The position numbers and the translations under genes are program-made. Positions 8,792 through 41,211 of a stretch of 64,000 bases of DNA are shown here, in pieces. How positions within the stretch are numbered: position 1 is the first letter of the stretch; each line of letters opens with the position of its first letter. A model generated the notes under the pieces. That model saw nothing but the letters and a program-made list of their open reading frames with translations. It searched no databases and was not told the origin of the DNA. The stretch spans positions 1,488,001 to 1,552,000 of the forward strand of contig NZ_CP021731.1 in assembly GCF_003628555.1 (NCBI RefSeq). Direction: 5' to 3'. The stretch comes from Azoarcus sp. DN11. Lineage in GTDB: Bacteria > Pseudomonadota > Gammaproteobacteria > Burkholderiales > Rhodocyclaceae.

Positions 8792-9967
8792 TTAGCCGCG
8801 GAGCAGGCTCAGCACGTTGTTCGGCAGCGAGTTCGCCTGGGCGAGCATCGCGGTGCCGGCCTGCTGCAGGATCTGGCCACGTGTCAGGTTGGCGGTCTCG
8901 ACCGCAAAGTCCGCATCGCGGATCCGACTGCGCGACGCCGTCAGGTTTTCCGAAGTCGTGTTCAGCGTGGCAACCGTCGAAGCGAAGCGGTTCTGGATCG
9001 CACCGAGATCGGCACGGGCGCCATTGACCGCGTTGAGGGCTCCGTCCATCGCCAGAATCGCATTGTCTGCGCCCGCTACACTCGAAACGTCCAGATTCGT
9101 GAACCCGGTTTGCGCCGTGCCAGTGGTAGCGGTGACGGCCGCAGTACCGAAGGTCAGACCTGTAGCGTTCTGCGTGGCGGTCTGATTGGCGGCAGCACCG
9201 CCGATTACGATGGGGGTTCCCGTGGTAGAGGTCAGGGTGATCTTGCCCGTCGTTGCGTCAGCGCTGGCCGTAACGTTAGAGGTTGCCGTTGTCGCATTGA
9301 TTGCTGTGGCGACGGCGGCGCCTTGCGCTACGGGAGTCGCACCGGCGGCGACCGCCCCGACAGAAACGCCATTGATCGTCAGATCGCCTGCAGCTAGTGC
9401 TCCGACAGCCGGTGCATTGCCCGCGGCGGTCGTATATGCGACGGAAGTCCAACTTCCCAGTGCCGCAATCTTGGCGTTGGCAATTCCCGAGATGGTGATC
9501 GTCTGGCCCTGATCCGCGCCGACCTGGAAGTCCTGGTTGGTGAAGCTGCCGTCGAGCAGTTTCGTGCCGTTGAACGAGGTCTGGTTCGCGACGCGGTCGA
9601 TCTCGGCCTTGAGCTGCACCACTTCCTTCTGCAGTGCTGCACGGTCGTTGGCGGAGTTCGTGGCGTTGCGCGACTGGACGGCCAGTTCGCGGATACGCTG
9701 GAGGTTGTTGCCGATTTCGCTCAGCGCACCTTCTGCCGTCTGGGCTAGGGAAATACCGTCGTTGGCGTTGCGGGCAGCCTGGTTCAGGCCGCGGATCTGG
9801 GCGTTCATGCGCTCGGAAATCGCGAGACCGGCGGCGTCATCCTTTGCGCTGTTGATGCGCAGACCGGAGGAGAGGCGCTGCAGCGAGGTGGCGAGCGAAC
9901 TCTGCGAGGTGGTCAGGTTGCGTTGCGCGTTCAGCGAGGCAACGTTGGTGTTGATGACTTGTGCCAT
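8792..9967 (-). CDS. fliC: Flagellin
   Basis: A 391-residue flagellin. Both conserved ends are present: MAQVINTNVASLNAQRNLTT and LSSGLRINSAKDDAAGLAIS at the N-terminus, and SENLTASRSRIRDADFAVET plus QILQQAGTAMLAQANSLPN at the C-terminus. The centre (about 180-320) is variable, rich in Ala, Thr and Gly, and forms the surface-exposed part. The start is the family MAQVI; the upstream in-frame residues fall in the 5' leader. A sigma-28 promoter ends about 94 bp upstream, so the gene is probably expressed late, after hook completion. Only this flagellin gene is in the window. Confidence 0.97.
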   Translation of the reverse strand: MAQVINTNVASLNAQRNLTTSQSSLATSLQRLSSGLRINSAKDDAAGLAISERMNAQIRGLNQAARNANDGISLAQTAEGALSEIGNNLQRIRELAVQSRNATNSANDRAALQKEVVQLKAEIDRVANQTSFNGTKLLDGSFTNQDFQVGADQGQTITISGIANAKIAALGSWTSVAYTTAAGNAPAVGALAAGDLTINGVSVGAVAAGATPVAQGAAVATAINATTATSNVTASADATTGKITLTSTTGTPIVIGGAAANQTATQNATGLTFGTAAVTATTGTAQTGFTNLDVSSVAGADNAILAMDGALNAVNGARADLGAIQNRFASTVATLNTTSENLTASRSRIRDADFAVETANLTRGQILQQAGTAMLAQANSLPNNVLSLLRG

Positions 9968-30935: not shown

Positions 30936-31011
30936 GGGCCGATAGCTCAGCTGGGAGAGCGCTGCGTTCGCAATGCAGAGGTCGAGGGTTCGATCCCCTT
31001 TCGGTCCACCA
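30936..31011 (+). tRNA. tRNA-Ala (anticodon CGC)
   Basis: A 76-nt cloverleaf: acceptor GGGCCGA pairs with TCGGTCC, the D-arm has AGCTCAGCTGGGAGAGC, the anticodon loop is TTCGCAA (anticodon CGC, decoding GCG), the T-arm has GGTTCGATCC, and the CCA end is encoded. It has its own promoter. Its natural terminator, immediately downstream, has been split by the transposon described below. Confidence 0.97.
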
Positions 31012-31019
31012 ACACATGA

Positions 31020-31037
31020 GGCCAGCCTTCGCGCTGG
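31020..31037 (+). terminator. tRNA-Ala terminator, left half, interrupted by the transposon
   Basis: GGCCAGC, loop CTTCGC and GCTGG end abruptly at the transposon tip. The missing CC and a run of five T lie beyond the other transposon end (40971-40977). Rejoined, they form a 7-bp stem with T-run: a standard intrinsic terminator 8 bp after the tRNA. Confidence 0.75.
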
Positions 31038-31044
31038 TGTGCCG

Positions 31045-31113
31045 TTAAGCATAAAGTGGCCACCAGGCCAATTTATGCTTTATTTCACGATTGGCCATAT
31101 TTTGGTTTATCGG
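31045..31113. repeat. Left-end transposase-binding repeats (three copies)
   Basis: One copy at 31045-31062 points outward (minus-strand TGGCCACTTTATGCTTAA). Two copies at 31064-31086 (GGCCAATTTATGCTTTATTTC) and 31091-31113 (TTGGCCATATTTTGGTTTAT) point inward. The last two match the first two right-end copies in the same direct orientation. Confidence 0.65.
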
Positions 31114-31177
31114 GTGCGGCATAGTAGTCTGGCTGGTTTGCAACTGCGGTCTGTGCCCGCGGTTGCAGCAAAGAGTC

Positions 31178-31206
31178 AAAAAAACGGGACCTCGCGGTCC
31201 CGTTTT
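31178..31206. terminator. Bidirectional intrinsic terminator
   Basis: AAAACGGGACC, loop TCGC, GGTCCCGTTTT form an 11-bp stem, with A-run before and T-run after, so it works on both strands. On the minus strand it ends the tniQ transcript 22 bp past its stop. On the plus strand it can stop read-through from tRNA-Ala, whose own terminator is disrupted. Confidence 0.85.
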
Positions 31207-32102
31207 GCTTTCCAGGTGAAGCTGGGGTCAGCGGCGGCGGCTGTCCATCACGGCGGTGATATGGCGGAAGATGCCGGGCACGGATTGCGCCTCGGTATCG
31301 AGCCGACTCCAGATGTCGCGCGCGCTCATCCCCTCGTAGCCCGCTGCCAGGCGCTCATCGAGCACCTCCCCAATCTGCGATTGCAGGCGAGTCTGCCGTT
31401 GCTCGCCGCGGGCGGCTCGATGGCGGAGGTAGCGGTCGGCAATGGCGCGGGCTTCTGCATTGGCCTGCAGGTAGAGGCTCTTGCGGTCGACGCCCACGCG
31501 TTCGCTCGCTTCATTGACGGACACCGGCTGCGGCTCCTCAAGCATTGCGCGCAACTGTGCACGGATGTCGTCCCAGTCCAGTTCCCTAGACTTGATGCCT
31601 GCTCGCGGCGATTCGGGGAGCTCGATGGGCATCTGTACAGGCACGAGAGGAGGTTCCCATCCTTCGACATCGCCGGCGAACAGCTTGTCCAGTCCAATCC
31701 CGCCGTGCAGGGCAATGGTCAGCCAGGCCTTCAGGGCCGGGATGCCTCCTTTGTTGAGCCAGTGGGAGATGCCGCTCTTCGAGAAGCCATACCGACTCGC
31801 AAAGGTACTTGGCCGCCCGTCGGCCATGCGCTCGATGACGGTCTCCAGCAGTGGGACCAGTCCAGGGGACGCGACCTTCGGAGGCTCCTGCAGCATCTGC
31901 CCGACTTGGCGGGCCACCCAAAGTGCTTCCGGTGAGGCGGATTCGGTTTCAGCGTCGCCGAGAAACCCGCCGCACGAGGTGCAATAGCCGGGAACAACCA
32001 CCGCGGAACGACTCCGGACATTGCTGCGGTGGCAGCGCGGGCAGGTCGTTACCAACTGCACCTTGTGACGCAGGCAGGCGGTAACGGGGGCGACGTCCCA
32101 GG

Positions 32103-33665
32103 CTAGGAGTCTGCGCGGCAGAACTCCAGAGAGTGGGGTTTTAGCAGAAGGATCGGCGAAGCGAGAGGTGCGGGAAGAGACTGCGGCCGTGGTTGAATTG
32201 CTTCGCGACGGTGCTGCGCCCGTGCCGGACGGGAACGGGGACAGATTTGCGCCCCTTTTTCCCGTTATGCCGTCCTCAGTGTGCTCATCCTGCGCAGGTT
32301 CAGGGCCATACAGACGAGCTTCCACTCCGCTTTGACGCGCTCCAGGCCCCGCAGGCTGAACTGCCGGAATCCCAATACGTTCTTGATCCAGCCGTTGGGC
32401 GGTTCGGCGATCCATTTCCGTTTTCGGTAAGCCGTCTTGCCCGCCTCGCTATCGAGCTTGTCGGCCATCTGCGCGGTGTGCGGACTGCGTTCACGGTCGA
32501 AACCGAGTCGGCGCTTGCCTTCCCGGCCCAGCGCCACCACCAGTTCGGTCCCGCAGCCGTCGAGCTCCCGGAACGTCTGCTCCGAGCGGTAGCCGGTGTC
32601 GGCCAGCGCCTGGCGCGGGCGCTGCGCGAGGGTGTCGCGCACGACCTGCAACATCCCCGGCAGTAGCCCGGCGTCGCTGGCGTTGTTGGTCAGTTCGGCC
32701 GCCACGATGATGTGGGCGGTCTCGTCGACCGCCGTCTGGGCGTTGTAGCCCGGATCGAACCCGCCGCCGGCGCGCTTCATGATGCGGCTGTCTGGATCCG
32801 TGAAGTTCTCCTGTGCCTTGTCCTCGGGCACCCCGAAGTCGCGCTTGTAGCGCCCACCCTTCGGTTTGCCGTCACCGCCGCGCGGACGGCGGTCGTCATC
32901 GTCGCTGCGCCCGCGCGCCTGATCGGCCTCGCGCTGGCGCTGCTCGAGCCGCGCCCGGGCTTCGGCAATCGCCGTCAGCCGCGCCTCGCGCCGCGCGATC
33001 TCGGCCGGCACATCCAGCTCGGGCTCGTTCCTCTCGGCGTCGTCGGCGGCCTTGGCCCGATTGAGCAGCGCCTCGATCTGCCGTTTCAATTCGGCCTCCG
33101 CCTTCACCATGTGGCCGTAACTCATCGCCTTGTGGCGGCTGGCGTTCGCCTTGACCTTGGTGCCGTCGATGGCCACCGTCCCGAGCTTCACCAGCCCCAT
33201 CTCGCGAGCCAGTCGCACCACCTGCACGAACAACTCGCTCAGCTCCTTCAAGTGGACAGCGCGAAAGTCGCTGAGCGTGCGGTGGGCCGGGAAGTTGCCT
33301 GCCGCCAGCACCCGGAACGCCACATCCTCGTGCAGCTTGCGCGCGATCTTGCGCGAGCTGAACACGCCCGTGGCGTACGCATACAGCAGCACCTTGACCA
33401 TCATGGCCGGATGAAACGGCTGGTTGCGCGGTCCGCCCCCGGCATACCGGGTGTGGAACGCGCTCAGGTCCAATCCGTCGACCGCGTCGCTAATGAAGTA
33501 CGCCAGGTGGCCTTCGGGTAGCCACTCCTGCAGCGCCTGGGGCAGCAGCATCTGCTGCTGCGGGCAATAGGGCAGATAGCTCGTCATCTCGACAGTCTAC
33601 CGGCCCCGACACGCCAGGGAGGGCTTACCTCACCGACGCTTGGCTTCTGCCGCGCAGACTCCTAG
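32103..33665 (-). mobile_element. Complete IS1182-family insertion sequence with CTAG target duplication
   Basis: The element proper is 32107-33661 (1555 bp). Its 17-bp perfect terminal inverted repeats are GAGTCTGCGCGGCAGAA (32107-32123) and the complement at 33645-33661. CTAG flanks it at 32103-32106 and 33662-33665. Removing the element and one CTAG restores the tniQ reading frame, which fixes the borders to the base. It holds a single full-length transposase gene and may still be active. Confidence 0.92.
32265..33587 (-). CDS. IS1182-family transposase
   Basis: A 440-residue DDE transposase. The N-terminal DUF772 domain (PAMMVKVLLYAYATGVFSSR) is followed by a charged insert (about 165-250) rich in Glu and Arg, then the DDE_Tnp_1 core. 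Catalytic candidates are D in VAIDGTKVKANAS, D in ALADTGYRSEQ and E in WIAEPPNGWIKNVLGFRQ. The frame is intact and fills the IS, so the element looks functional. It lies antisense to nothing important but interrupts tniQ in the same orientation. Confidence 0.93.
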   Translation of the reverse strand: MTSYLPYCPQQQMLLPQALQEWLPEGHLAYFISDAVDGLDLSAFHTRYAGGGPRNQPFHPAMMVKVLLYAYATGVFSSRKIARKLHEDVAFRVLAAGNFPAHRTLSDFRAVHLKELSELFVQVVRLAREMGLVKLGTVAIDGTKVKANASRHKAMSYGHMVKAEAELKRQIEALLNRAKAADDAERNEPELDVPAEIARREARLTAIAEARARLEQRQREADQARGRSDDDDRRPRGGDGKPKGGRYKRDFGVPEDKAQENFTDPDSRIMKRAGGGFDPGYNAQTAVDETAHIIVAAELTNNASDAGLLPGMLQVVRDTLAQRPRQALADTGYRSEQTFRELDGCGTELVVALGREGKRRLGFDRERSPHTAQMADKLDSEAGKTAYRKRKWIAEPPNGWIKNVLGFRQFSLRGLERVKAEWKLVCMALNLRRMSTLRTA

Positions 33666-33922
33666 CCGCAGGTACGGTTCAACGTTGTTGGCTTTGTCCT
33701 CGGCCAGGCAGCACGGGCACCAACGGTCGGATTTCGGCGCCAAGCCCGGGACGCCCAACACGGGGCGCCAAGGGGCCAGGGTGTGACGGTCCAGTGATGC
33801 CATGCCCGTGAGTTCGGCCAGCCTGGCCGCCCATTGCTCGCTCTCCGGCGACATGCTCGAGAAGCTACGCTGATGCCAGACGATTGGTTTGCGGACCCAC
33901 TGGGCGCACAACCTTCCCGGTT

Positions 33923-34369
33923 CGTGTTACCCGCCAAGTTGTGGATGTACTCGGTGTGAATGCGTCCGAAGATGCGCTCCATGACCGAACCGTGGCGCGG
34001 ATTGCCGGCGGGACAGTAGCGGACGTGAATGCGCATCAGTTCGGCGAAGTGCTTGAAATCCTCGCTGCGGAAGTCCGCCCCATTGTCGACGACGATGAAC
34101 TGCGGCAAACGGCGGTGGCGACGGACGATGTCGCGCAGGAGCATCATGTTCGAGCGGTACGACGGCGGGTCGAACGAGAGATAGATGCCCACGATTCGCC
34201 GCGTGAATGCGTCGATGGCCAGCGACAGCCATGGCCGACCGAGCGACTTGCCGGTCTTCAGTGAGACCAGTTCGATATCGAGTTCCGTGTGGTCCATGTG
34301 AACGTACTGGAGTGCGCGCGACCCGTGGACTGGCGTATCGGCGTAGAGCACATTCACGAACTCGGCATT
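33923..34369 (-). pseudogene. tnsB: TnsB/Mu-like DDE transposase, internal fragment
   Basis: About 149 residues of an rve-type integrase core. The catalytic triad is present: D in YVHMDHTELD, D in FIVVDNGADF and E in GSVMERIFGRIHTEY. Family motifs RPWLSLAIDAFTRRIVGIYL and LSFDPPSYRSNMM confirm a Mu/TnsB-type enzyme. The N-terminal DNA-binding domains are missing: homology starts abruptly at about 34369, fused in frame to the tail of the next fragment. The C-terminus stops after IHNLAGNT near 33923 and runs out of frame into tniQ. So at least two deletions removed the flanking parts and any tnsC. Confidence 0.8.
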
Positions 34370-34817
34370 CTGGTAGCGCTGCGTTTCTGCCTGCTTTCTT
34401 CTCTCTTCGTCTTCTGCGAGAAGACGGGCGATGTGCGCGTGCGGATTCGCGAGCGACCGTGGGAGCGCTGCCTTCCCCGCCTGCTTCCTGGCCCGTTCGA
34501 AGACGACGTCCAAGGTTTCAGCGAATTCGGGGCGAGGGGGGAAGCTCGCTTATCGGTTCGTCGTAGTACCAGCCGGTGCGGCGACCGATTTCGACACTAC
34601 CGGACTCTCCGAGTCCCCGGCGGGGCAGAGGAATGCGGCGAACCGGCTTGCCAGCCGCGTGGGCCGCCCAGTAGCCGCGGGGTGGAACCGGTACGCGGGC
34701 AGCTGCACAGGCTTTTCCGAGCGCAACGTCCGACAATCCGAATTCCTTGGCCAGGACGGTTTTTGGCTTACGCCATACCAGTTCGTACAGGTCTTCGCGT
34801 GTCAGCGTTTGCGACAT
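34370..34817 (-). pseudogene. Conserved hypothetical protein, frameshifted and truncated
   Basis: The frame opens at MSQTLTREDLYELVWRKPKT with a good Shine-Dalgarno (GAGGAG). The first 99 residues (SDVALGKACAAARVPVPPRG, YWAAHAAGKPVRR) look like an HTH-containing protein of unknown function often met in mobile regions. The frame then stops, but the next frame continues the same protein style (FAETLDVVFERARKQAGK, RLLAEDEERRKQAE). The shift coincides with a six-base G/C run at 34535-34540, so a slippage indel is likely. It is cut off at about 34370 where tnsB sequence begins. Confidence 0.6.
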
Positions 34818-35230
34818 GGGACGTGCTCCTCACGGTCGTAGGCGTAATGGTCTAACTTGCCGACCACTGCGACTAGGGTGAGGGCCATGTCCCGTACTCG
34901 CCGTTGTGCGTTTCACGGAGCATTGAGAGTCAGGGGGGCGGCTGAAGACGGGCTCGAGGAGCCGCATCGGGCGCGGCGACCGCACCGACTGTGCCGACAT
35001 GAGCTGGCGGGCGCCTCCGAACGGCTTCCCCGGTCGTCTTCGAGCCTGAAAAGAAAAAAGCCCGAGCAACGGGGCCCGGGCTTAAATCCACACCAAGGAG
35101 GAGGGTGGAGGAGACGGGTGAACGATACGCCTACGTATTGATGCGATGCAACAAATAATTTTTATCGCCCCATTGCAGAGGCTTCGGTCGCCTCCGTTGC
35201 CCTTCGGGTCACCAACGTCGGCTGCGCGCA
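34818..35230. other. Non-coding stretch inside the transposon
   Basis: About 410 bp without a supportable gene. It contains the ribosome-binding region of the fragment above and one intrinsic terminator at 35053-35083. Short open frames here lack start signals and family character. Confidence 0.5.
35053..35083 (-). terminator. Intrinsic terminator, minus strand
   Basis: AAGCCCG and CGGGCTT form a 7-bp stem, followed on the minus strand by TTTTTT-rich sequence. It lies about 150 bp past the stop of the gene ending at 35231 and is its likely terminator. Confidence 0.6.
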
Positions 35231-35905
35231 TCAACCCACGTGCGTCCCACGCGTGCTCGCAGCCGTTGAATGGACAATGGGCAACACGTCGGCGAAATGC
35301 TCGTGCATCTTCCTCACCGGCTGCATGTTTTCAGCAACTCCTGTCAGGATGGACTGCAGCTGCGCGGTCAGTGCGACGACCGCGTTGGAATTGCGGATGA
35401 CGTCGTAAATGAGCTGCGGCGGGTAACCCGTCATGGTGCGGGACAGCGGATGCAGACCGCCGTGCGCATAGCTGTTCATCGCCTTCCACGTGACTTCCTT
35501 GTACTCGCGCAGTTGCGCGACGATGGGCGCGGGCGCGTCGGGGTGGGCTTCTAACTCCTTGAGCATATCGGCCAATCCCAGCCCCTCATTGGCGCGCTTG
35601 GCGGTTTCCATCGTGAGGGGCTCGGAAAGCTTGGCGACCCAGTTGTCGCTGGCCGCGTGGAGGAGCCAGACGCCTCGAACCAAGCTCTCGAACTGCGGGC
35701 GGGTGAGCGCAATCGCTGATGAGAACAGCCCTTGGTCGACCAGCATCAAGATACTGAGTGCGTGTTCCAGCGAAAGCAGGCCGGACTGGAATGCTGCCAC
35801 GAAGCGCTGGTCCGGCGCGGGCAACAGCGACTGTACATGGCGCTGCACCTCCGTGTGGTACTGGGCGGTTCGGTCGAGGAGTCGATGAAGGTTTTCGTCG
35901 GTCAT
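35231..35905 (-). CDS. DUF5677/DUF6988-like helical protein, cargo
   Basis: About 224 residues, mostly helical and soluble. Recognisable blocks are LEHALSILMLVDQGLFSSAI, ALTRPQFESLVRGVWLL and WKAMNSYAHGGLHPLSR, the pattern of the DUF5677 type with conserved Arg, Glu and the S-x-x-x-H-G segment. Function is unknown; relatives occur in defence islands and other accessory regions. It is divergent from the DUF429 gene with about 100 bp between. The start MTDENLHR lacks a Shine-Dalgarno; MPSVFPHF at 35941 is an alternative. Family naming is from memory of sequence style and not certain. Confidence 0.6.
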   Translation of the reverse strand: MTDENLHRLLDRTAQYHTEVQRHVQSLLPAPDQRFVAAFQSGLLSLEHALSILMLVDQGLFSSAIALTRPQFESLVRGVWLLHAASDNWVAKLSEPLTMETAKRANEGLGLADMLKELEAHPDAPAPIVAQLREYKEVTWKAMNSYAHGGLHPLSRTMTGYPPQLIYDVIRNSNAVVALTAQLQSILTGVAENMQPVRKMHEHFADVLPIVHSTAASTRGTHVG

Positions 35906-36005
35906 ATAGAGGTGAGGGAAATGCGGGAAGACAGATGGCATACTAGCGGAACGGCCGGCGACCATGTCTCCGCGATGCGTGATGGTGTGTGAGGGAAAAG
36001 ATTGA

Positions 36006-36644
36006 ATGGTTTTCGATAGTCCGCTCACCGTGGCCGGCATCGACATCGGCGGGACCAAGAAGGGCTGTCACCTCGTCGTCCTGCACGGCAACGACATCGT
36101 CTGCAGCATCCGTAGCGGCGACCCTGACCATCTGGCGCGAACGTGCCAGGAGCTTGGTGCGGTAGCGGTCGGCATCGATTCGCCCTGCCAATGGGGGCAA
36201 CCGCAATCGGGCCGGCGGGCGGAAAAGATGCTCGCCAAGGAGCGGATATTTTCCTTCGCGACGCCGACGCGGGAGCGCGCTGAGGCGAACACGTCTGGGT
36301 TCTATGGCTGGATGTTCTGCGGTGAGCGCGTCTATCAGGCCCTGGCTGCCACCCACCCGCTGTTGAGTGACGTGGGCTACGCCGGCGGGAAGGTCTGCTT
36401 CGAGACGTTCCCGCATGCCATCACCTGCGCGATGCTTGGCACCGCCGAGGCCTCGGCGAAACGCAAGCGCGTGCAGCGCCGACAGCTGCTGAGGGATGCG
36501 GGCATTGACCCGACACCATTGAAATCCATTGATGCAGTGGATGCGGCCCTGTGCGCGCTGACCGCCACATATGTGATTGCCGGTCGGAGCGAGGCATACG
36601 GGGATACCGAGGGCGGCTACATTTTCGTTCCCGCCTCGCTGTAG
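36006..36644 (+). CDS. DUF429 family protein (RNase H-like fold), cargo
   Basis: A 212-residue protein. It begins VAGIDIGGTKKGCHLVVLHG, an actin/RNase H-like first strand with Asp, has AVGIDSPCQWGQ with a second Asp, and DAVDAALCALTATYVI with a third near the C-terminus. This matches DUF429, predicted nuclease-like proteins of unknown role. The three acidic residues suggest metal binding. It faces away from the DUF5677-like gene and is followed, 110 bp later, by a toxin-antitoxin pair. Confidence 0.7.
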   Translation: MVFDSPLTVAGIDIGGTKKGCHLVVLHGNDIVCSIRSGDPDHLARTCQELGAVAVGIDSPCQWGQPQSGRRAEKMLAKERIFSFATPTRERAEANTSGFYGWMFCGERVYQALAATHPLLSDVGYAGGKVCFETFPHAITCAMLGTAEASAKRKRVQRRQLLRDAGIDPTPLKSIDAVDAALCALTATYVIAGRSEAYGDTEGGYIFVPASL

Positions 36645-36694
36645 GCCATTTGATTCTTGCAGGGCCTTGACCGGACAGTGGAGCCGGCGATAGT

Positions 36695-36739
36695 GATTGC
36701 AATGATTGCGGTCCGCGCTAAAATGCAAGCATTGCAATC
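36695..36739 (+). promoter_or_regulatory. Inverted-repeat operator of the FitA/VapC pair
   Basis: GATTGCAAT (36695-36703) and its exact complement ATTGCAATC (36731-36739) flank a TAAAAT -10-like box (36719-36724), 15 bp before the antitoxin ATG. Paired sites over the promoter are typical for binding of a VapB/FitA complex in autoregulation. Confidence 0.6.
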
Positions 36740-36753
36740 GTCAGGAGGGCGCC

Positions 36754-36966
36754 ATGGCGACCAATCTTGTTGTGCGCAACGTCGAGCCCGAGGTCGCGCA
36801 GGCCTTGAAGGAGGCGGCGGCTCGGCACGGGCGTAGTGCTGAAGCGGAGCACCGCGAAATTTTGCGGGTGGCCCTTTCGCGACCGCCTCGCCGAACCTTC
36901 AAGGACGTGCTTGCGATCATGCCCGACGTGGGTACCGACGAAGACTTCAACTTCAGGCAGGGCTGA
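36754..36966 (+). CDS. FitA-like ribbon-helix-helix antitoxin
   Basis: A 70-residue protein. The ribbon-helix-helix domain is MATNLVVRNVEPEVAQALKE with AARHGRSAEAEHREILRVAL, the FitA signature (Arc-type DNA binding with the RSAEAE motif). The C-terminal tail (FKDVLAIMPDVGTDEDFNFR) would wrap around the toxin. It represses its own promoter and neutralises the PIN toxin. The stop overlaps the toxin start (TGATG). A start 48 bp upstream is possible but lies inside the operator. Confidence 0.9.
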   Translation: MATNLVVRNVEPEVAQALKEAAARHGRSAEAEHREILRVALSRPPRRTFKDVLAIMPDVGTDEDFNFRQG

Positions 36967-37394
36967 TGTACCTGCTCGACACCAACATCATCAGCGAGCT
37001 GCGCAAAGGCGGGCGCGCCAATCCCGGCGTTACCGCCTTTTTTGCGACTCTGGCAGCGGAAGACATCTATCTATCGGTGCAGACCGTCGGCGAGATTCGT
37101 CGCGGCGTCGAGACCATCCGTAAACGAGGTGACCGCGAGCAGGCGAATCGCCTCGAGGCCTGGCTGGACCTGGTGATTGCCGACTACTCGGACCGGATAC
37201 TGGGCTTCGACCTCGACTGCGCGCAGGTATGGGGAAAGCTCATGTCGCCGAGTCCCCAGCATCCCGTCGACAAGCAGATTGCTGCCATTGCGCTCATCTA
37301 CGACCTGACGGTGGTCACGCGTAACACGGAAGATTTCGAGTCCACCGGAGTGCGGAACATCAATCCCTTCAGCTCGCCTCAGCCGATAACCTGA
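36966..37394 (+). CDS. VapC/FitB-type PIN-domain ribonuclease toxin
   Basis: A 142-residue PIN domain. Acidic active-site residues are visible: D in MYLLDTNIISELRK, E in QTVGEIRRGVE and D in HPVDKQIAAIALIYDLTVVT, then the late TRNTEDFE motif. VapC toxins cleave RNA, often tRNA. The gene is translationally coupled to the antitoxin. The pair may stabilise the transposon. Confidence 0.92.
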   Translation: MYLLDTNIISELRKGGRANPGVTAFFATLAAEDIYLSVQTVGEIRRGVETIRKRGDREQANRLEAWLDLVIADYSDRILGFDLDCAQVWGKLMSPSPQHPVDKQIAAIALIYDLTVVTRNTEDFESTGVRNINPFSSPQPIT

Positions 37395-37524
37395 CAGGTG
37401 GTGACGCACGCTCACCAGTATCCGGGGCGTTTCTGTTCCGGCGCGTCGAGCGGTCGCCGGAGGTATTGGAGAGGTTTGCGGACCCGGCTGTCGTCGCGCC
37501 CGCCCGTGCATCGGGGCAGTTCCG

Positions 37525-38388
37525 TTAGCCAAGAGCATCTAGGTGCGGCAGAAACACCTCGAAAAACACGTCGCAGGCCTGCCGAGGAGAGTAGGTAATT
37601 CCACTTGGCAGGAATCCCTCCATGTCGGTCAGGAACTTCCGCGACGACATCCGCCGCTCCAGTTCGCTCCGCACCTTCGTGGAATCCAAGGTGCTTCCCT
37701 CCTGCGCCATGTAGAAGCGGAAAGCCTCCCCAACGCGGGCAGGATTCACCCGAACATCGGCGCCCGCCGCTTGCGATGCGTCCCAAGCTCGCCACAGGTC
37801 GAAGAGGTCCCGCCCGTGTTCGCGCTGCAGGAGCGCACGCAGCTTTGTGCCCAGCATTTCGTCCAAGTCATAGGACAAGACCTCGACCTTGCGGACGCCG
37901 CCGGCGCCCGTGGGCACCTCGATTTGAATCGGCACAAGGGGGAACAGGCTCTTGCGCTCGTTGATGTTCACCTCGACCTTCAGCTTGGCCATCGCCCCTT
38001 CCTTGCTGTGCGGGTCGTAGATGTAGGTGCTGCGTATGAGCTTGGATTTGGCTGCCAGGTTTCTGACGGCGAGCGTCACCGTGGCGATGACGGACTCGTT
38101 CGGCTTGCCAAGCAGCGGGTGCAGTACGCGCGTGAGCGCTTGCTTGATGTGTCCGGCTGGCCGGTCGCCTACCAGGACCAAATCGATGTCCTCGGAGTAG
38201 CGGCTGGCCGGCGCCAAGTGCGCCTTGTGCAGTACGGTGCCACCGCGCATCGCGAGCTGGCTCTTCAGGAAAGGGTCTTCGAAAATGGCTGCGACCGCCA
38301 GGCAGAGCAGGTAGTCCTGCTCGACCATCAGGTCGTTCAGCCACGGGGCGCAGCTGCGCCAGACGTTTATTTCGCGCGCGGATATCAT
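37525..38388 (-). CDS. AbiEii-type nucleotidyltransferase toxin
   Basis: A 287-residue DUF1814/AbiEii protein. The nucleotidyltransferase motif is MRGGTVLHKAH followed by YSEDIDLVLV (G-G-T and D-x-D). The later motifs KLKVEVNINE and EMLGTKLRALLQREHGRDLF, including the catalytic Lys and D in RDLFDL, match the family. AbiEii toxins modify tRNA 3' ends or otherwise stop growth on phage infection. It overlaps the antitoxin gene by 4 bp. Confidence 0.92.
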   Translation of the reverse strand: MISAREINVWRSCAPWLNDLMVEQDYLLCLAVAAIFEDPFLKSQLAMRGGTVLHKAHLAPASRYSEDIDLVLVGDRPAGHIKQALTRVLHPLLGKPNESVIATVTLAVRNLAAKSKLIRSTYIYDPHSKEGAMAKLKVEVNINERKSLFPLVPIQIEVPTGAGGVRKVEVLSYDLDEMLGTKLRALLQREHGRDLFDLWRAWDASQAAGADVRVNPARVGEAFRFYMAQEGSTLDSTKVRSELERRMSSRKFLTDMEGFLPSGITYSPRQACDVFFEVFLPHLDALG

Positions 38389-39224
38389 CGAATCTCATCT
38401 AAGAACAACAGGCGGCCGGGGGCATACAAGACGCCCCAATCCTTATTCAACTCCAAAGCACAGTCGTCCGGTGCCTGCAGCTCGAGTGGCACCGACACCG
38501 TTCGACGGGGGGCCATCCACTTCCGAATTCGTCTGGCCGGCCCGACGTGTCCGAGCGCCTCCAGCAGAAAGCCCAGCCGTTGCGCCGTCGATGTGTGGTC
38601 AAGGCCGTCCAGCGCCCTGGTCATCTCGTCCGCATTCAGGTCCTTCGCAAAGTCGTTCGACACCCTGGCCACTGCTTCAACGCCGCCGATGGAAACCTGC
38701 GCACGAAGCAGGTCCAGCAGCGTCGCCTCCCGCGTGCTGACACGCCACGGCGCCACGTCGCCGCGCACCACGACTGTCGGGGTCTCATCCAGGCGCGCTT
38801 TTACGGTGAAGTCGAGGCGATGCACCCCTACGGCGGCGCTCCTTCGCGCCCGGCTCACCATCACCTGGGTGGTCTGCAGTGCGTAATGGGCAGACCCCCA
38901 GTAACGCGCTGCGGAAAGTAGCCCGACGTAGTAGCGCGGTTCCAACCGCTTCATGTAGTCGTCCAACCACCAAGTCACGGGCGGCGCCCCGTAGTGCTCG
39001 TATTCGGGCGGCACGATGACCCAACCCGAGGTCCGTTTCGCGGCCGCGACGATGCGCTTCTTCCGACTGAGCCGGGACAGCACGCCGGTGACCGCGAGGT
39101 CGGTAGGAGCCATGCCGAGAAGCGCTGCGAATTCCGCTTGCTCGAAGTGGTAGCGGTGCTGGGCCTGGATATGCCGAAGTGCTTCGTCAGGAGACATTGC
39201 TTTCGAAGACGTCGCAATAGTCAA
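38385..39224 (-). CDS. AbiEi-type antitoxin/transcriptional repressor
   Basis: A 279-residue protein with an N-terminal winged helix (about 10-70) and a C-terminal AbiEi domain (PRYYVGLLSAARYWGSAHYA, VSTREATLLDLL). The antitoxin binds its promoter and opposes AbiEii. An in-frame ATG at 39197 is an alternative start. Together with the toxin gene it forms a type IV-like phage-exclusion system. Confidence 0.88.
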   Translation of the reverse strand: MTIATSSKAMSPDEALRHIQAQHRYHFEQAEFAALLGMAPTDLAVTGVLSRLSRKKRIVAAAKRTSGWVIVPPEYEHYGAPPVTWWLDDYMKRLEPRYYVGLLSAARYWGSAHYALQTTQVMVSRARRSAAVGVHRLDFTVKARLDETPTVVVRGDVAPWRVSTREATLLDLLRAQVSIGGVEAVARVSNDFAKDLNADEMTRALDGLDHTSTAQRLGFLLEALGHVGPARRIRKWMAPRRTVSVPLELQAPDDCALELNKDWGVLYAPGRLLFLDEIR

Positions 39225-39236
39225 AATATTTTGCGA

Positions 39237-39265
39237 ATAGTAATGTTCGGTGTTTATATTTGCAA
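39237..39265 (-). promoter_or_regulatory. Promoter of the AbiE pair
   Basis: On the minus strand TTGCAA (39260-39265), 17 bp, TACTAT (39237-39242), 13 bp before the annotated start. The surrounding 39210-39275 is unusually AT-rich and has two similar half-sites, ACTATTCGC and ACTATTGCG, that could bind the AbiEi protein. Confidence 0.5.
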
Positions 39266-39316
39266 AGAATTTTGCAGCTCGGCATCGGGCCGTCTACCCT
39301 TGGCATTCGGGACGTA

Positions 39317-39823
39317 TCAGTAGGCACCGTGACCGAGGTCGGCTGCGGCACGGAGAATCCGCAGCACGTCAGCGGCACGGTCCGCACGTATCTCTTCGAG
39401 GGGGACGCGTCCGGTGAGCAATGGTTCTGAATACGTCAGGAAGTCACGCGCTGCCCACATCCTGTTCTTCCCGAAGGCCATGAGAATGTTGGGTAAGACT
39501 TGCATGACGGCCGGTTCGAACTGCCACGCGGGGTAACGAACCCCCGGCATCACGCTGCGCGCGGACAGCGCCAGTAACTGACCGCCAGAGCGCATGCGAC
39601 GAAGGGTTCGCGCCGGGATTCCGGAAACCGTGGCCGCTTCCCTGGCTGACAACATGTCGGCGGCTCGAAGTTGCGCTCGTTGTTGTCGTCGGCCGCGAGC
39701 CAGTGGCGTGCGCTCAAGCCGCTCCGAAGTCAGGTCGTCCAGGGATTCCTCACCGAGGTGGGGCCGGTCATTGCCCTGCATGTGGGTCTCGTTCTCGTTC
39801 GGGTTGGCTACCGGTGCAGCCAC
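39317..39823 (-). CDS. ParS/MbcA/Xre-like antitoxin-type protein
   Basis: A 168-residue protein. The N-terminal 45 residues are disordered and charged. A helix-turn-helix-like block follows (MLSAREAATVSGIPARTLRR). The C-terminal ~60 residues (AARDFLTYSEPLLTGRVPLE then ADRAADVLRILRAAADLG) match the toxin-binding domain of Xre/MbcA/ParS antitoxins, whose usual partner is a RES toxin. Here the partner gene, overlapping by 16 bp upstream, encodes a HAD-type protein instead. A role as antitoxin or regulator is inferred from domain type and pairing. Confidence 0.65.
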   Translation of the reverse strand: MAAPVANPNENETHMQGNDRPHLGEESLDDLTSERLERTPLARGRRQQRAQLRAADMLSAREAATVSGIPARTLRRMRSGGQLLALSARSVMPGVRYPAWQFEPAVMQVLPNILMAFGKNRMWAARDFLTYSEPLLTGRVPLEEIRADRAADVLRILRAAADLGHGAY

Positions 39824-40323
39824 TCGAGCTTCTCGCGCAGGTCCGCTTGCGCCGCGCTCGTGCCAAGCCCGAGAAGTGGGTCCGTGAGGACAAGGTTGGC
39901 GCGGTGCTCGTCTGCCCAGCCCGCGCCATTGTCATCGACGGCGAGCCAGCGAGTATGGCGATGTCGCTGGACGGTATGTCGAATCTGTTCGTAACGGGTC
40001 AGGTTGTCCCATCGTCGTGGAGCCGTTTCGTACCACGTGGCCCCGACGACACGGCGCCGCAGGGATTCGGGCAGGTGCGAACGGGCGGCGTCGAAACCAA
40101 GCACCCGCGCCCATGAGGTCGAGAGGACAACCTGCAGCGCCGGGTACGGCGTGAGGAGGTCCTCCAGGACATCGGTCCATTCGAAGAGCCGGAAGCCGTC
40201 AGTGCGCAGAACGATTCGCTCACCCTTGCGGTACACGGCGTCCGGATGAAGCACGCCGTCGTAGTCGAGGAAGAGGGTCGGGCGCTGCGGTTCTCGCTGC
40301 CGAATTCCCCCACTGCTTGCCAT
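39808..40323 (-). CDS. HAD-superfamily phosphatase-like protein (RNA-repair HAD type)
   Basis: A 171-residue HAD-fold protein. Motif I is LFLDYDGVLHPDA with both aspartates, motif II is the Thr/Ser in VVLSTSWARV, and a C-terminal acidic motif (WLAVDDNGAGW) supplies the metal ligand. It resembles the short HAD domain described in bacterial RNA-repair proteins. It is the first gene of a two-gene operon with a ParS/MbcA-like gene and has its own promoter. If it acts on RNA or nucleotide phosphates it could be a toxin or an immune effector; this is inference. Confidence 0.7.
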   Translation of the reverse strand: MASSGGIRQREPQRPTLFLDYDGVLHPDAVYRKGERIVLRTDGFRLFEWTDVLEDLLTPYPALQVVLSTSWARVLGFDAARSHLPESLRRRVVGATWYETAPRRWDNLTRYEQIRHTVQRHRHTRWLAVDDNGAGWADEHRANLVLTDPLLGLGTSAAQADLREKLEWLHR

Positions 40324-40398
40324 TCTCTGTTCCCCTCCTCAACCATCTCGGACCGAGTGTGCGCGCGCGGAGGCAAGGAGGGTATGCGGGATTATCCT

Positions 40399-40428
40399 AA
40401 CGTATTGTTTAAAATAGCGATTTGTCAA
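40399..40428 (-). promoter_or_regulatory. Promoter of the HAD/ParS-like operon
   Basis: A perfect minus-strand -35 box TTGACA (40423-40428) lies 18 bp before TACGTT (40399-40404), in an AT-rich patch about 75 bp upstream of the HAD gene. Confidence 0.5.
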
Positions 40429-40429
40429 G

Positions 40430-40792
40430 TTGTCGGACGATTGCAGCGCAAAGGTCGCGCTGCCGGCGCTCCCGGTAGTACGAGGTACAAGGCGCGTGCG
40501 CCAACGCCGGGCATGCCTGACCCGCTGTTCGGCACCGCTCGCGGGAGGGCGAACCTGTCAGCGGCTCCATCCGCCATCGTTTCCGGAACGACATGAGATA
40601 GACTGGCTGTTCCGTGCCCCCCGTCGGCATCGTGGAGACGCCTCGGCCGCAGGCTCGCGGCGCGAATGGCTGGGGGTGGGCGACGGCGCTTTCAGGTCGG
40701 TAGGAAACCGTGTGCTGAGGTGCGGGAGTGGTCTGTCGTGCCGCGGAGTCCCGAAAACGGCGAAAAGGCGTGTCGTTTCGCGGAGATTTTTT
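40430..40792. other. Non-coding stretch inside the transposon
   Basis: About 360 bp between the HAD promoter and the right-end repeats. Open frames exist on both strands but have no family motifs, no Shine-Dalgarno and run through the end repeats, so I call no gene here. Confidence 0.5.
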
Positions 40793-40941
40793 TTGGCCAT
40801 GAATTGCTTTATTTCGTCCCGATTGGCCAAGTTATGGTTTTCGGGGTTCCGTAGCGCGGGCGAAAGCGGGCCATCTGGGCTTTTCCAGGCCCGTTGACGG
40901 TCACGAGTTCGATAGCTCTTGGCCACTTTATGCTTTATTCC
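40793..40941 (+). repeat. Right-end transposase-binding repeats (three copies)
   Basis: TTGGCCATGAATTGCTTTAT (40793-40812), TTGGCCAAGTTATGGTTTTC (40823-40842) and TTGGCCACTTTATGCTTTAT (40919-40938) all point outward. A fourth, diverged copy merges with the tip at 40952-40966. The array is typical of TnsB-type ends. Confidence 0.7.
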
Positions 40942-41211
40942 GTGCCAGGAAATGCTTAACGGCGCACTGGCCTTTTTCACGTCTGCCGGTGCGCCAATGC
41001 TGGCGCGGCTTCCCTGATTCGAGCGAAAGGCGGATCCGGCCCGAGCACCCCCATTTTGGGTTGCTGCCAGTTTCGTGGGGTGATCGCCCACTTATCTATC
41101 GTGGTGAGGGGGCAAACCTTCGGTCATCCTCCCGGTGCGGCGCGGATGGAGTCGCAAGCAATTTTGCGTTCATAATTGAACTGTCCAAACCGCGGACGAG
41201 GAGGTGTTGGA

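Follow-up and report, generated by a model that had tools for sequence, protein, structure and literature searches.

Why does the terminator of a transfer RNA gene, tRNA-Ala(CGC), lie in two pieces on either side of an island of transposase fragments and defence-type genes? The question is raised by 64,000 nucleotides of Azoarcus sp. DN11 (NCBI RefSeq assembly GCF_003628555.1, contig NZ_CP021731.1, positions 1,488,001 to 1,552,000 of the forward strand), hereafter the window; coordinates given without a prefix are positions in it. A reading of the letters alone had proposed that a Tn7-like element used tRNA-Ala as its attachment site, landed in the tRNA terminator and spans 30936-40977. Our analysis supports this interpretation overall and confirms that 31038-40966 is a decayed Tn7-like element splitting the terminator of tRNA-Ala(CGC). 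The coordinates proposed earlier were correct, but that span also takes in the tRNA gene and the right flank. The element is very probably the decayed insertion of a Tn7-like transposon with a fused TnsAB, a TnsC and a TnsD-type TniQ, a transposon that homed to tRNA-Ala(CGC) and whose target was set by tniQ.

The target gene (30936..31011, plus strand; called with ARAGORN) is followed by a spacer of 26 bp between its CCA and the element tip (31012..31037, plus strand), the same distance as originally predicted. The spacer holds the left arm, the loop and most of the right arm of the terminator and ends in GCTGG. The tRNA-side terminal inverted repeat, TGTGCCGTTAAGCAT, occupies 31038..31052 on the plus strand, and its distal counterpart, ATGCTTAACGGCGCA, which differs by one substitution (TGCGCCGTTAAGCAT), occupies 40952..40966 on the minus strand. 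Beyond the distal tip, CTGG (40967-40970) represents four of the five base pairs of an expected target duplication, and CC with five T supplies the remainder of the tRNA terminator (40967..40977, plus strand). As the original prediction held, joining the outer flanks with a single CTGG rebuilds GGCCAGC-CTTCGC-GCTGGCC-TTTTT, a hairpin with a U-run, and the 46-nt joined stretch has a minimum free energy of -16.7 kcal/mol. Allowing up to two mismatches, the tip pattern has three matches in the 4.96-Mb host genome, two of which are the two ends of the element; the reversed pattern, used as a control, has no match there.

Tn7 has TGT..ACA ends, several TnsB sites, a 5-bp target duplication and a fixed distance of insertion downstream of a conserved gene (glmS). 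Both tips of the window element are of this TGT..ACA type and several TnsB-like sites accompany each: eight 17-mers resemble TnsB sites at up to five mismatches, whereas 20 mononucleotide shuffles give 0.85 on average. Three lie at the tRNA-side end (starts 31046, 31065 and 31092; 31046..31108, no strand assigned), three at the distal end (starts 40794, 40824 and 40920; 40794..40936, minus strand), one forms a palindrome at 31195 and one is internal, at 36643. Between the tips are a fragment of a TnsB integrase-core homologue and a TniQ/TnsD target selector in two pieces split by an insertion sequence, so that the tips, subterminal sites and broken TnsB/TniQ module described at the outset were all found.

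Relatives were examined for the empty site. Around tRNA-Ala(CGC) in 16 same-genus genomes (approximately 3.1 kb each, tip sought at up to three mismatches), 15 have no such tip. One of them (G003) carries the left 26 nt of the window identically, followed by CC, uninterrupted. The right flank is uninterrupted in G010 (81% identity over 62 bp) and in G002, where 17 of 17 bp match directly after CTGG; the other same-genus genomes have differing downstream sequence and so provide no test of the flank join. The sixteenth genome, that of Aromatoleum toluolicum (G001), bears this tip 29 bp beyond the tRNA-Ala(CGC) CCA, and G015 has those 29 bp followed by other sequence, which is an empty site for the A. 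toluolicum element. The latter encodes full-length tnsAB, tnsC and tniQ, its TniQ is identical to that of A. toluolicum locus L156, and its distal end was not found. No element-free relative was seen with an interrupted terminator, and the tips do recur beside other copies of these genes: ten further members of the window element's TniQ clade have their end 26-29 bp beyond tRNA-Ala(CGC). As a separate observation, in G019 a TGT-type junction of another kind lies 26 bp beyond this tRNA-Ala (locus L118, about position 2317, G019:C29), and the six open reading frames (ORFs) scanned there include no transposase.

The fuller relatives reveal the architecture from which the window copy would have decayed. 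A search of 199 family genomes with the TnsB fragment (E 1e-3) matched 49, the window's own included; the closest are G473 (89%), G498 and G441 (both 72%), all at tRNA-Ala(CGC), and G585 (62%), at a transfer-messenger RNA (tmRNA) gene. With the G441 TniQ as query, 40 of 399 order genomes matched, again counting the window's own. In G441, Pfam recognises TnsA_N, rve and Mu_C in a single protein, followed by TnsC (AAA/TniB) and TniQ; the fusion of TnsA with TnsB is also found in G473, by alignment to residues 6-840 of 9bw1_M, and TnsC is present in G441, G473 and A. toluolicum. Among proteins of solved structure, the nearest are the TnsAB and TnsD in 9bw1/8v32 (profile matches to 9bw1_M at E 3e-226 and to TnsD, 8v32_J, at E 4e-55), and the alignment of TniQ to the 8v32 TnsD spans profile positions 7-405 of 429.

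When named genomes were scanned with the TnsAB alignment, 56 loci emerged. In these, targets were called with ARAGORN, distances were taken from the tip to the 3' end of the RNA gene, and a tip was considered clear at 12 of 15 positions or better. Thirty-three elements have a clear tip after tniQ. In 29 of them, comprising 23 loci from the scan together with the window element, G473, G441, G863, G585 and G622, the tniQ end points towards a called tRNA or tmRNA gene, and 26-31 bp separate the 3' end of that gene from the tip (the tip of L164 ends in TA, and its distance was measured by eye). A 4.5-Mb genome has about 60 tRNA genes, from which the chance of a tRNA 3' end in a given 12-bp interval is roughly 2 in 10,000, and 29 of 33 is therefore not a chance outcome. 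The targets are Ala(CGC) in 11 elements, tmRNA (ssrA) in five (L158, L159, L170, L171 and G585), Ser(UGA) in four, Met(CAU) in three, Val(CAC) and Gly(CCC) in two each, and tRNAs that ARAGORN left unnamed in two. Every one of the 11 members of the TniQ clade to which the window element belongs has inserted at Ala(CGC), 26-29 bp beyond the CCA, and the 26 bp of the window element conforms to the fixed distance past a tRNA gene that marks the subfamily. There is nothing special about tRNA-Ala: among sister branches, tRNAs for Val, Met, Ser and Gly, as well as tmRNA, serve as targets.

Taking all 56 loci together, a tRNA or tmRNA 3' end lies close to the element end in 35: 23 with tips of at least 12/15, seven with weak tips, one with an intron-bearing tRNA and four at selC. 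In the selC cases (L193, L194, L196 and L202, distant relatives from Paraburkholderia, near 9470-9620), a TGT seen by eye lies 27-33 bp past selC, at the end that carries tnsAB rather than the one with tniQ. More distant relatives, with weaker tips, stand beside Arg(CCG), Leu(GAG), Met, Val, Ser, Ala(CGC) and tmRNA genes; for the target of G462, Rfam gave matches at chance level only. A 5-bp target duplication with both ends on one contig is present in G473 and L157, and L148 has a 5/5-bp duplication with its ends on two contigs. The CTGG duplication described originally was thus seen, but relatives duplicate five base pairs and the window retains four of them. G473 also harbours a reduced copy of 3.4 kb with the same tips (L203:9579-12962 = G473:C1:1669578-1672961), which contains a Fic gene and a TniQ tail, has no tnsAB or tnsC match, and shares its tRNA-Ala site with the complete element, the two being arranged in tandem. 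One contig, JACESY010000074.1 (L067), is an inverted duplicate of itself in which element and tRNA appear twice in mirror image; this probably arose in assembly.

Which gene carries the address was examined by comparing trees. In a quick TniQ tree of 65 rows, the 11 close-family Ala(CGC) rows, the window included, form one clade (Shimodaira-Hasegawa-like approximate likelihood ratio test 97), which joins two Val rows and L153 at 100; neither part of TniQ alone (residues 1-95 or 96-425) resolves the Ala clade. The distinct tRNA-Ala branch that had been suggested from the window is therefore visible as a clade, but Ala(CGC) is not its exclusive property, being used also by three distant relatives (G435, G716 and G782). 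On the close-family TniQ tree (28 labelled rows, seven states), six target changes are required, which is the minimum, and 100 shuffles of the labels gave at least 13; the corresponding TnsAB tree requires seven changes over 27 rows (G622 was left out of both trees, and G863 has no TnsAB row). The target tracks tniQ better than tnsAB.

The most informative locus is L151, at Ala(CGC), on a metagenome-assembled contig labelled Rhizobium that holds all its genes and the tRNA. Its tnsAB groups with Val-homing elements (100/100), and the TnsC tree agrees (100/100). In approximately unbiased (AU) tests, whose groups were named after the trees had been seen, monophyly of the Ala rows is rejected on the TnsAB data (p 6e-6), and a grouping of L151 with the Val rows is rejected on the TniQ data (p 4e-7). 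L151 and L157 are 82% identical in TnsAB, 78% in TnsC and 58% in TniQ, and the TniQ of L151 is 66% identical to that of L148. The simplest reading is that the tniQ of L151 was exchanged and took the target along. A chimeric L151 TniQ, first hinted at by windowed identities, was considered and rejected: both parts (1-95 and 96-425) reject the grouping of L151 with the Val rows (AU p 0.004 and 0.002), and the whole gene therefore seems to have been exchanged. A second exchange, combining a Gly-type tniQ with a G585-like tnsAB, is only suggested, as TniQ rejects G585 with Gly (p 6e-7) and TnsAB does not reject Ser with Gly (p 0.07). On balance, we favour the view that tniQ is a swappable address label and that a single TnsAB-TnsC chassis has come to serve at least seven tRNA or tmRNA genes, with replacement of the complete tniQ gene behind at least one change of target. 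If this is true, natural pairs such as L151 and L157 constitute a direct code-breaking set for how TnsD reads a tRNA gene.

Several observations weigh against the reading of a decayed, tRNA-homing Tn7-like insertion. The duplication in the window is imperfect, with CTGG as its remaining four of five bases, and the distal end is decayed. Four of the 33 clear-tip elements fall outside the 29: a close relative, L153, has no recognised RNA gene at its tip; L162 has only a tRNA-like remnant, at 29 bp; the end of L165 (15229-15339) adjoins the 5' side of selC and its tip is partly doubled; and at L189 (17668-18005) the target tRNA, at 29 bp, apparently has a group I intron, and it was consequently missed by ARAGORN. 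In L169, one of the 29 (Herminiimonas, tRNA-Ser(UGA); L211:1501-1529), a doubled, overlapping tip gives 16 or 30 bp, the outermost copy lying at 16 bp. The seven weak tips were sought only 12-45 bp from a tRNA, so their distances are not independent evidence. Twenty-one of the 56 loci have no assigned target (L152-L154, L160-L163, L165, L167, L172-L176, L180, L181, L183, L185, L188, L195 and L197), and in these the contig is truncated, tniQ is missing, cargo intervenes ahead of the element end, the locus is abnormal, or no RNA gene was found. L150 (Noviherbaspirillum) has matching 5 bp at ends that are 2.4 Mb apart (G964:C1:4728108 and 2339263; L150 and L220), which reflects either rearrangement through an element or chance and was not counted. 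A second A. toluolicum element end (L204:13803-13817 = G001:C234:138802-138816) adjoins another copy of the tRNA's downstream spacer (CACCACCA and some 28 bp more), here with no tRNA; only one end is seen, and the 19 kb examined contain no match to tnsAB, tnsC or tniQ. As for the trees, support for the Ala clade is 85/85 in a careful TniQ tree, and the wide TniQ tree (42 labelled rows in nine target states) requires 12 target changes against a minimum of eight, which means that certain targets, among them Ala(CGC), reappear in branches far apart.

In the complete ancestor, TnsAB would bind the repeated sites at both ends and excise the element, and TnsC would bridge TnsAB and TniQ, roles that are assigned by homology. 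TniQ would bind within the 3' portion of the tRNA-Ala(CGC) gene, and the element would go in tniQ end first at a set distance of 26-29 bp from the CCA, generating a 5-bp duplication and sparing the tRNA. In this mechanism tniQ would determine which tRNA is used and would move between elements independently of tnsAB and tnsC. On this reading the tRNA gene itself would be what TniQ recognises and binds. The site might instead be read in the terminator hairpin or another feature after the tRNA, an idea to which the insertions in or beside a terminator-like hairpin in the window and L157 lend some appeal. We consider it unlikely, given that spacer sequence varies between hosts while the distance from the CCA stays at 26-31 bp, and that the tRNA differs between sister TniQ clades.

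Two further explanations would take target choice away from a DNA-reading TniQ altogether. tRNA homing by guide RNA is reported for some CRISPR-associated transposons (CASTs) in part of PMC11406308, and an element-borne guide matching tRNA-Ala could in principle direct insertion here as well. The longest exact match between element and tRNA region is, however, 11 bp in the window and 12 bp in G473 and in the part of G441 examined, where 50 shuffles of the window element reach 13; the parts of L156 and L157 examined have no exact match of 11 bp or more. PADLOC found no Cas effector in ten window ORFs and seven G473 ORFs, no dedicated search for CRISPR arrays having been made, and its CRISPR-labelled matches are to TniQ, TnsB and WYL models. 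Together with the near full-length match of TniQ to TnsD, this makes guide-directed homing highly improbable. Equally hard to credit is a tyrosine integrase that used tRNA-Ala as its attB and carried the Tn7 genes as passengers. tRNA genes are common integrase sites, and a phage-integrase fragment does occur some 4 kb into the element from the second A. toluolicum end (L204), but Pfam detects no such integrase among the window-element ORFs scanned, the junction falls past the tRNA with no duplicated tRNA end, and the boundaries are TGT..ACA-type tips with TnsB-like sites, with 5-bp duplications in relatives. The decayed, tniQ-addressed Tn7-like insertion remains by far the best explanation.

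Among known systems, the transposition module of the type I-B2 CAST, to which we take the PDB entries 9bw1 ('Integrase'), 8v32 (TnsD) and 8fcu (TnsC) to belong, shares the fused TnsA-TnsB, the TnsC and a TnsD that matches over most of its length. It differs in that the window copy has no visible cas genes or second TniQ and a different tRNA target, and in that the hosts of the window's branch are mostly betaproteobacterial. Tn7 (TnsABCD, glmS) shares the tip type, multiple TnsB sites, the 5-bp duplication seen in relatives and the fixed distance, whereas here TnsAB is fused and the target is a tRNA gene, not a protein gene; the TnsB of Tn7 (7pik) is a weak match (E 3e-5).

According to passages of PMC11406308, the type I-D and I-B2 CASTs derive from a fused TnsA-TnsB subfamily whose TnsD uses different tRNA genes and which shows promiscuous swapping of TniQ partners; the same passages describe some CAST elements that home to tRNA genes with guide RNAs. 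An excerpt of PMC10293859 places CyCAST 30-33 nt past tRNA-Leu via TnsD, and sites downstream of tRNAs are mentioned in a portion of PMC8649781. The type I-D CASTs (CyCAST and McCAST) thus resemble the window's branch in belonging to the fused TnsAB subfamily and, for CyCAST, in TnsD homing past a tRNA (excerpts of PMC10293859 and PMC11406308), but in our elements no Cascade is seen, the window's target is tRNA-Ala(CGC) and the distance in its clade is 26-29 bp. On the evidence of those passages of PMC11406308, tRNA homing by fused-TnsAB Tn7-like elements is already published, and what is described here is a new branch of a known kind. In the open-licence literature searched, neither tRNA-Ala(CGC) or tmRNA as a site nor this betaproteobacterial branch was found, and no Tn7-like element homing to tmRNA appeared among the matching papers listed, as judged by title and the start of the abstract. 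The branch unites related elements that have very similar ends and different tRNA or tmRNA targets, and it bears on how TnsD picks one tRNA among dozens. The apparent natural exchange of tniQ makes target choice testable by a one-gene swap, with possible use in tools for safe-site insertion.

The window copy itself is read as a deletion derivative of a Tn7-like member rather than a complete member, as TnsC is absent. The 3' part of tniQ/tnsD (31228..32105, minus strand) corresponds to about residues 130-422 of the G441 protein at 63% identity, and the middle part, from about residue 63 (33663..33911, minus strand), gives a Pfam TniQ match barely above the cut-off (27.9 against 27 bits). Between them lies an IS1182-family insertion (32106..33662, minus strand; NCBIfam NF033551, 387 bits) with 18-bp inverted ends seen by eye and a transposase ORF at 32265-33587. 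An internal tnsAB fragment follows (33920..34432, minus strand), comprising the integrase core, about residues 457-630 of the G441 protein, and 89% identical to G473. Both the TniQ and the TnsB fragments are backed by Pfam and PADLOC, the latter fragment by rve and TnsB models. A tblastn search of the window gave no match to tnsC, to the remainder of tnsAB (the TnsA part included) or to the start of tniQ. Because the tnsAB fragment has no second match anywhere in the host genome, the window copy is now probably immobile by itself.

Just past tniQ, a strong inverted repeat with A and T tracts (31181..31206, no strand assigned; folding z -4.6 and -3.3) might serve as a terminator on both strands, standing in for the split tRNA terminator. 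A comparable repeat follows tniQ in several relatives, as judged by eye. The palindrome, in which the T tract forms part of the stem, is absent from the output of a terminator scan, which reported a weaker hairpin at 31057-31070. Upstream of the tnsAB fragment, in a different frame, an ORF resembling a helix-turn-helix protein (34518..34817, minus strand) has no Pfam or NCBIfam match; a similar stretch is visible by eye in the A. toluolicum locus L204.

The cargo begins with a DUF6988 protein (35231..36058, minus strand; PADLOC candidate PDC-S52) and a DUF429 protein (36006..36644, plus strand; PADLOC candidate PDC-S44). These are followed by a pair comprising a FitA-like antitoxin and a PIN-domain toxin (36706..37394, plus strand; Pfam), an AbiEii and AbiEi pair (37525..39224, minus strand), and a protein with no family match beside a HAD_SAK_2 protein (39317..40323, minus strand). 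With its AbiE pair, toxin-antitoxin pair and PADLOC candidates, the window copy is one more island of defence-type genes explained by tRNA homing. Parts of both proteins encoded at 39317..40323 resemble, by eye, a single ORF of L204.

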